From Onthophagus taurus (Eukaryota > Arthropoda > Insecta > Coleoptera > Scarabaeidae): a stretch of 64,000 nucleotides of DNA. The stretch spans positions 20,894,001 to 20,958,000 of the forward strand of contig NC_091973.1 of assembly GCF_036711975.1 (NCBI RefSeq), given 5' to 3'. Shown here piece by piece: positions 40,966-41,712 of the stretch. Both the position numbers and the translations under genes were made by a program. The notes below the pieces were generated by a model. It was not told the origin of the DNA, made no database searches, and saw nothing but the letters and a program-made list of their open reading frames with translations. Position 1 is the stretch's first letter; each line of letters begins with the position of its first letter.

Positions 40966-41712
40966 TCAAGTTTTGAAAATGAAGCTGTTTGGAATTACTA
41001 ACTGATCGACTAATAATTTAGTGTCTTTTCTGTATAAAATATTATCTTTATCCAAAAAATACGTTTCCACAATCTCTTTACAAAATGGATCTCTCTGCTG
41101 AGCTAATCTGATTGAGTCTCGATCCCAAACAGGAGTAACTATCGGTTCTGAATCATTATTGATACTGAAAACTGAGTTATTTTCGGGTAAATCAAATATC
41201 GTAATTAAAATGTTGTATTTCTCAAAAGTTTTTTCTAATAATAATTTTACAGCATTCCAATTTAATTTGTCAAGACCACATGCAATTTGTGGCATAGCTA
41301 GTTTTCTAATTTTTCTTTTAAAGCAAAATACAGCTAGTTTTTCTAGACATAATTGCAATGATTCTAAAGTAGGTTTTTCATAAAATTTCCATTTGGTAAT
41401 TAGATAAAATAAGTAATGTTGACCATTTCTTAAATAACAAAATTCACCAACTTTCCTATTTGGATTTACTAAATAAGTTACATTTCCGAACTTTTCTTTG
41501 AAGATTTTCGCTATCCCCTTTCCCATCCTTAAATCCTCAGAAACACAATGTGCTAAAGAACTTGAATTTTCTACACTAAACAAATCGCCAACTTTCTCTT
41601 GAATTTTTGTATTTAACGGGGTTTTATTGATTGCATTAACACTATCATCCCTAATAACCTTATTATCAAGATTTTGATACATTCGACTCAGAGCATCAAC
41701 ATTACCATTTTC
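40966..41712 (-). pseudogene. TARG1/OARD1-like macrodomain within a gypsy polyprotein
   Basis: The frame starts in RNase H linker sequence (NVDALSRM, where ATG 41682 is the first Met) and runs to 40966. Residues about 25-165 form a macrodomain: KVGDLFSVENSSSLAHCVSE, DLRMGKGIAKIFKEKFG, YLFYLITKWKF, KLAMPQIACGLDKLNWNAVK and ILITIFDLP. Counted from the Met at 41682, Lys97 and Asp138 occupy the places of the catalytic Lys84 and Asp125 of human TARG1, with the same spacing of 41. TARG1 removes ADP-ribose from glutamate. After the domain the frame reads DRDSIRLAQQRDPFCKEIVE and YFLDKDNILYRK, the usual linker before the integrase zinc domain. The domain is therefore embedded in the Pol polyprotein. 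Upstream and downstream frames are broken, but the macrodomain itself is uninterrupted. Confidence 0.85.

Follow-up and report, generated by a model that had tools for sequence, protein, structure and literature searches.

The window locus

The stretch of DNA analyzed here (the window) comprises 64,000 nucleotides (nt) of the dung beetle Onthophagus taurus (assembly GCF_036711975.1, contig NC_091973.1, positions 20,894,001 to 20,958,000) and contains a Ty3/gypsy retroelement whose Pol sequence includes a macrodomain of the TARG1 type. A first-pass annotation, made from the sequence letters, had placed such a domain at 40966..41712, between the end of RNase H and the pre-integrase linker. The Pfam and PDB matches and the alignment to human TARG1 bear this placement out, and the interval does contain the macrodomain, although the domain itself is narrower. 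The features of the locus, all on the minus strand, are as follows.

41688..42296 (-): Ty3/gypsy Pol RNase H, in a frame different from that of the macrodomain open reading frame (ORF); RT_RNaseH 2.5e-42, best PDB match Ty3 (4ol8), 5.9e-29
40966..41730 (-): open frame of 254 amino acids (aa), RNase H tail (DALSR), macrodomain, and pre-integrase linker, from the ORF translation
41188..41637 (-): TARG1-type macrodomain, ORF residues 32-181, aligned to human TARG1 residues 3-152
41392..41394 (-): codon equivalent to Lys84, position derived from the alignment; Lys in 44 of 44 alignment rows
41269..41271 (-): codon equivalent to Asp125, position derived from the alignment; Asp in 43 of 44 rows
40969..41175 (-): macrodomain-integrase linker, from the ORF translation; no Pfam match
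40727..40951 (-): zinc-binding H2C2 piece of the integrase, preceded by a frame break; PF17921 1.7e-12
40189..40734 (-): integrase core; rve 6.4e-8, best PDB match prototype foamy virus (PFV) integrase, 1.8e-7
36591..36944 (-): C-terminal piece of the integrase, past a 3.3-kilobase (kb) interruption; it belongs either to this copy or to a second one

The N-terminal part of the 254-aa ORF is an RNase H tail ending in WENGNVDALSR, and a chance open frame was rejected, the probability of 254 open codons at a given place being about 6e-9 at the window's composition. The window copy itself is a dead, decayed element. Its RNase H and macrodomain are out of frame with each other (break near 41710), its H2C2 region is broken, no reverse transcriptase (RT) was seen upstream of 42296, and the integrase is interrupted by approximately 3.3 kb that contain a DDE_Tnp_4 transposase and are bordered by an identical 48-nt repeat (36882-36929 and 40237-40284). 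Two further pieces of the window (9740-9984 and 39684-39927) are 96% identical and, read on the minus strand, resemble the C terminus of a gypsy Pol, which may be that of the macrodomain-bearing element.

Identity of the macrodomain

Judged by its dyad and predicted fold, the macrodomain belongs to the TARG1 subfamily of ALC1-like macrodomains. Human TARG1 (OARD1, C6orf130) was the best PDB match of the window ORF (2.8e-39), with 67 of 150 macrodomain residues identical in a gap-free alignment; the Pfam Macro match (8.1e-5) scored 23 bits, with the cut-off at 22. The equivalents of Lys84 and Asp125 are both present and lie 41 residues apart, the spacing given in the first-pass annotation. In an alignment of 44 sequences (A6), a Gly is found at position 121 in 41 rows and is replaced by Ala in the window copy. 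A structure predicted from 44 sequences, as had been suggested on first reading, shows the TARG1 fold and supersedes an earlier, poor model from three sequences (pLDDT 52); loop residues are conserved. A macrodomain tree that included viral rows from IMG/VR joined the window domain and human TARG1 weakly (support, 91/67). TARG1 is a stand-alone host protein, whereas here the domain lies inside a retroelement Pol. The macrodomain of the DarG antitoxin, part of a toxin-antitoxin pair, has only the Lys of the dyad and is less similar than TARG1; the sole alignment row without the Asp125 equivalent is a DarG-like one (L002). Directly before that DarG-like macrodomain, which comes from a Dehalococcoidia metagenome-assembled genome, lies an ORF (L002:3275-4461) that we take to be DarT-like.

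Macrodomain-bearing families across the genome

The genome searched comprises 290.8 megabases on 33 contigs, and all copies come from this one genome. The window ORF had 77 matches at E <= 1e-3, which we grouped by eye, from identity and flanks, into four families (F1 to F4); the other matches were fragments, single elements, divergent forms, and host genes. F1, the window family, consists of the window copy and four places at 79-92% identity, one of which (C8:20204879) carries RNase H, macrodomain, H2C2, and integrase in a single 744-aa frame. F2 occupies 22 places, with the macrodomain in a Pol frame of 1692 aa in 17 of them (once with a stop inside the match), and F3 occupies 10, with a frame of 1613 aa in 8. 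F4 has 6 places at 43-44% identity and frames of 346-1681 aa.

The order RNase H, macrodomain, linker, H2C2, integrase was found in F1, F2, and F4, some F1 and F4 copies being broken or cut short, and separate Pfam scans of F2 pieces placed RVT_1 upstream of the macrodomain and the integrase C terminus downstream. The anticipated order of RT, RNase H, macrodomain, and integrase is thus present in open-frame copies, and the description of the parts as one polyprotein, which fails for the broken frames of the window, holds for other copies, in which RNase H, macrodomain, H2C2, and integrase share an open frame. The Ty3-type RNase H of the window and, in the copies, the location of integrase downstream of RT-RNase H place the elements in Ty3/gypsy (Metaviridae). 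RNase H and H2C2 are 266-276 aa apart in the F1, F2, and F4 copies measured, one per family; the same points in Ty3 are separated by approximately 122 residues (chain positions 993 and 1115, by subtraction), so the excess corresponds to about one macrodomain. Linker length alone is not diagnostic, however, since linkers of 202-244 aa at L154, L157, L158, and L159 have no clear macro signal.

Had the window copy been the only one, its broken state might have suggested that the macrodomain is not a Pol domain at all and reflects a chance insertion of host TARG1 cDNA into a dead element, or an assembly artifact. Against this stand the single open frame leading from the RNase H tail through the macrodomain to the linker and, with the above limit on length, the enlarged RNase H-H2C2 span. 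A single insertion and an assembly artifact were rejected because F1, F2, and F4 copies share the arrangement at many places on several contigs, and we consider this explanation to have next to no probability.

Lys and Asp were both kept in 52 of the 63 fetched stretches with a profile match, a count that includes the window, two stretches from host genes, and a place that was fetched twice. Wherever the match is full-length, the F2, F3, and F4 stretches keep the dyad. The 11 stretches without it are an F1 copy with Asn in place of Asp125 (L092), truncated or broken matches (L124, L125, and L135), and degenerate ones (L126-L128, L132, L151, L152, and L160).

A second position in Pol and degenerate relatives

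Across related families, the macrodomain occupies two distinct positions in Pol. In F3, it lies approximately 880 nt upstream of RNase H; when its flanks were scanned apart, RVT_1 (1.8e-35) was found downstream and protease-like matches upstream (best E 0.0011, below the Pfam cut-offs), and in one F3 copy RNase H and integrase are joined by a linker of roughly 100 aa with no macro signal. This arrangement disfavors any role that depends only on adjacency to integrase. One such role would be that of a reader rather than an eraser, in which the macrodomain binds ADP-ribose where host poly(ADP-ribose) polymerases (PARPs) are active and directs Pol or integrase to chromatin that is broken or being transcribed. 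The position upstream of integrase in F1, F2, and F4 would suit a reader, as would the changed loop residues of the window copy and of F4, in which the conserved MGxGIA loop is altered to MSQGIA. We nevertheless regard a reader as rather unlikely, given that in F3 the domain precedes RT and the linker in front of integrase has no macro signal, and that the catalytic Lys and Asp, dispensable for binding alone, are kept in full-length F2, F3, and F4 matches.

Relatives were also collected by RNase H, for which 150 matches of 1856 candidates were scored and the first 43, the next two, ten further places, and L121 and L129 were looked at. Copies lacking the macrodomain at this point would have spoken against the first-pass annotation; all of the best 43 by score adjoin a macrodomain match (23 F2, 6 F4, 11 F3, and 3 F1, by coordinate comparison), with the 11 F3 matches having it in the other slot. 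At least 3 of the 43 macrodomains are truncated or frame-broken (L123, L125, and L136). The next two places (L130 and L131) have degenerate macrodomains, as does L129 (C11:9958195), yet all three show Lys and Asp at the aligned places. At the ten further places, for which RNase H and 1.5 kb downstream were covered and not the slot upstream of RT, the linker macro signal was degenerate in four (L151, L152, L156, and L160), absent in five (L153, L154, L155, L157, and L158), and uncertain in L159. L121 (C3:11705064) has an intact-looking domain, and the other macrodomain-bearing members of its second RNase H clade are degenerate. Finally, L126-L128 and L132 carry a macro-like domain upstream of RT with Gln/Gly in place of the catalytic dyad.

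As these sequences show, not every lineage needs an intact active site; the degenerate domains point either to a second use, structural in nature, or to loss once the pressure had ended. A purely structural role, with the captured fold acting as a Pol linker or stabilizer and the catalytic residues left over, would accommodate the degenerate domains both in the RNase H-integrase linker (L129, L130, L151, L156, and L160) and upstream of RT, as well as the long linkers without clear macro signal, which indicate that the linker tolerates varied inserts. It would not account for the dyad and TARG1 signature kept in families of many near-identical copies, nor for a low long-term omega (see below), and such a spacer seems to us unlikely.

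Selection and age

Comparison of nonsynonymous and synonymous rates (dN/dS, omega) across copies, another check proposed in the first-pass annotation, indicates long-term constraint. Under GY+F3X4, omega was 0.087 for 11 macrodomains and 0.066 for 8 RNase H rows, values that are rough, as synonymous divergence is saturated between families (tree length 18). Fixing omega at 1 cost 196.5 log units for the macrodomain (2dlnL 393) and 232.9 for RNase H.

Within families, the median difference was 0.51% among 20 fetched F2 copies and 0.43% among 9 F3 copies (9 of 10 stretches, one of unequal length being omitted); this near-identity suggests that F2 and F3 spread recently. The F2 maximum of 13.09% and the F2 integrase counts are inflated by at least one row, probably through an indel, and all rows were kept. 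The macrodomains of the young F2 copies differ by 1 synonymous and 5 nonsynonymous changes, so that constraint is not visible among them, and one macrodomain codon position carries a stop, as expected of copies drifting after insertion. Few changes underlie the pairwise dN/dS values within families, which are mixed (F1 pair, 0.030/0.080; F3 pair, 0.005/0.023; F4 pair, 0.008/0).

Origin of the macrodomain

A host TARG1-like gene (C1:43968965-43969470) has a 50-nt GT...AG intron, and the retroelement macrodomains compared are uninterrupted at that point, which is in keeping with capture of the macrodomain through RNA. Together, L133 and L134 represent this intron-bearing gene and a second copy that looks decayed.

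In the macrodomain tree, F2 grouped with F4, L101, L103, and L150 (100/98) and F3 with L122 (95/91), and the F1, L121, host, and human rows had no firm placement; trees that include degenerate rows are affected by long branches. The integrase tree placed F3 with F1, F2, and F4 (100/100), the long-branched L155 included, and the RNase H tree grouped F1, F2, and F4 (94/88) with F3 not firmly placed. Both trees are partly resolved, and the exact place of F3 differs between them. Approximately unbiased (AU) tests did not reject a single clade of all 12 retroelement macrodomains (p-AU 0.43) or of the 9 located between RNase H and integrase (p-AU 0.40). Either one capture with relocation or repeated capture may therefore underlie the two positions.

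Virus-like partners and viral relatives

Some of these elements also carry an envelope-type gene. Downstream of pol, one F3 copy matched PF24664, the fusion glycoprotein of Monjiviricetes (chuvirus type), in two abutting pieces (5.1e-97 and 8.3e-87; L163:961-2001(-) and L164:1-987(-)), and one F2 copy matched it in a 138-aa frame (1e-26; L166:867-1280(-)). Gag-type matches lie upstream in the one F3 and one F2 copy. In a comparison of flank pieces aimed at paired long terminal repeats, the pieces of one F3 and two F2 copies shared no repeat; the two F2 copies are similar right to the ends of the pieces compared, so these pieces may not reach beyond the element.

Among the best 50 of 1172 BFVD folds, many of them nameless, the closest to the macrodomain included Kadipiro virus VP8 (40% identity) and proteins of flavi-, negev-, and virga-like viruses of thrips. 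These arthropod viruses share the predicted TARG1-like fold, and are RNA viruses, unlike the Ty3/gypsy elements described here. Early searches of IMG/VR that started from the macrodomain ORF of the window, its alignment with human TARG1, the RNase H, and the integrase brought up no relatives. Stand-alone TARG1-like ORFs emerged from later scans, in many contigs (of 120 stretches confirmed, 80 were retained; L003-L009 and L011-L090); the aligned rows retain the Lys/Asp dyad, and an anti-DarT role for these ORFs is a possible guess. The loci collected by then gave no match (E <= 1e-3) to the RNase H and integrase pieces of the window. In a survey, Perina et al. (PMC4245714) report TARG1-like homologues in many viral genomes, few of which have the full set of active residues, and state that flies have TARG1 and lack MacroD.

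Proposed function

We propose, with slightly more confidence than doubt, that the Pol-captured TARG1 domain is a working (ADP-ribosyl)hydrolase that protects the element's own reverse transcription or integration. In this view, a Ty3/gypsy clade, at least some members of which have gag, pol, and a fusion glycoprotein, has captured the domain and keeps it inside Pol, either in the stretch that separates RNase H from integrase or after a protease-like stretch and before RT. The domain's identity, its position in open Pol frames, the conserved dyad of the multicopy families, the long-term constraint, and the near-identity of copies are established from the sequences, whereas hydrolase activity and role are inferred; this supports in part the first-pass annotation, which also suggested that such a domain could counter PARP-type host defense or DNA-damage signaling. 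It would be produced in a constant proportion to RT and integrase and travel with the cDNA complex. There it may remove the mono-ADP-ribose that host ADP-ribosyltransferases attach to Asp or Glu residues in proteins of the element or of chromatin, or to the ends of cDNA or RNA, so that reverse transcription or integration stays unblocked. Known TARG1 substrates include Glu/Asp-linked ADP-ribose, ADP-ribose on nucleic-acid phosphate ends, and DarT-made thymidine-ADP-ribose (PMC7050489, PMC9411070).

Several observations weigh against this protective hydrolase. The copies derive from one genome; the loop is changed in F4 and, at Gly121, in the window copy; Asp125 is lost in L092 and the dyad in the degenerate L126-L128, L132, L151, L152, and L160; related elements have long linkers without clear macro signal; and omega is rough between families, with constraint not visible among young F2 copies. 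Furthermore, insect-restricted alphaviruses lost catalytic macrodomain residues, which the authors link to the antiviral PARPs of mosquito genomes (PMC7729036); these losses speak against a PARP-based defense in an insect host.

The domain may instead regulate host metabolism or signaling. TARG1 hydrolyzes O-acetyl-ADP-ribose and can release whole poly(ADP-ribose) chains (PMC7050489), and either activity could act outside the element's own complex. Fusion to Pol, however, would tie the dose to the particle and not to the cell, and we judge such a role improbable. A broader form of the protective hydrolase is a tentative suggestion that we hold to be doubtful: env-bearing Ty3/gypsy elements would have taken up active TARG1 repeatedly, or moved it, into two Pol slots and kept it on account of a host restriction that acts on reverse-transcribing elements through ADP-ribosylation, with the TARG1-like domains of arthropod RNA viruses answering the same defense. 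If the domain is active, these would be retroelements with their own ADP-ribosylation eraser, which would suggest that ADP-ribosylation restricts reverse-transcribing elements, an idea that has so far been hardly testable. The active-looking, changed, and degenerate domains at two Pol positions, together with many near-identical copies, provide a natural series in which it can be tested.

Comparison with known elements

Eraser capture by gypsy elements and macrodomain ORFs in endogenous retroviruses are already known; we found no description of a TARG1-type domain within a Ty3/gypsy Pol in a literature search from which subscription journals were mostly left out. Fish epsilon-like endogenous retroviruses, similar in encoding a macrodomain protein in a reverse-transcribing element, are described as having it as an additional ORF (Basta et al. 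2009, as cited in PMC4977317), whereas here it is found inside Pol, at two positions. Orchid Ty3/gypsy elements have likewise captured an eraser enzyme, the RNA demethylase AlkB; this is a separate ORF in plants that acts on the N6-methyladenosine (m6A) mark (PMC9289625), unlike the Pol-internal macrodomain of the beetle elements. Anakin elements also use a chuvirus-type fusion glycoprotein as env, but belong to BEL/Pao, and the part of PMC7642597 available mentions no macrodomain.

Other elements in the window

Another mobile element occupies 16382-36151 of the window, with identical 364-nt inverted ends, a double-jelly-roll domain, an A32-like ATPase, and an integrase core; we take it to be Maverick/Polinton-like. 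Within it, a 549-aa ORF (22134-23780, minus strand) encodes a matrix-metalloproteinase domain (Peptidase_M10, 9.9e-35), to our knowledge an unusual cargo for an element of this kind.
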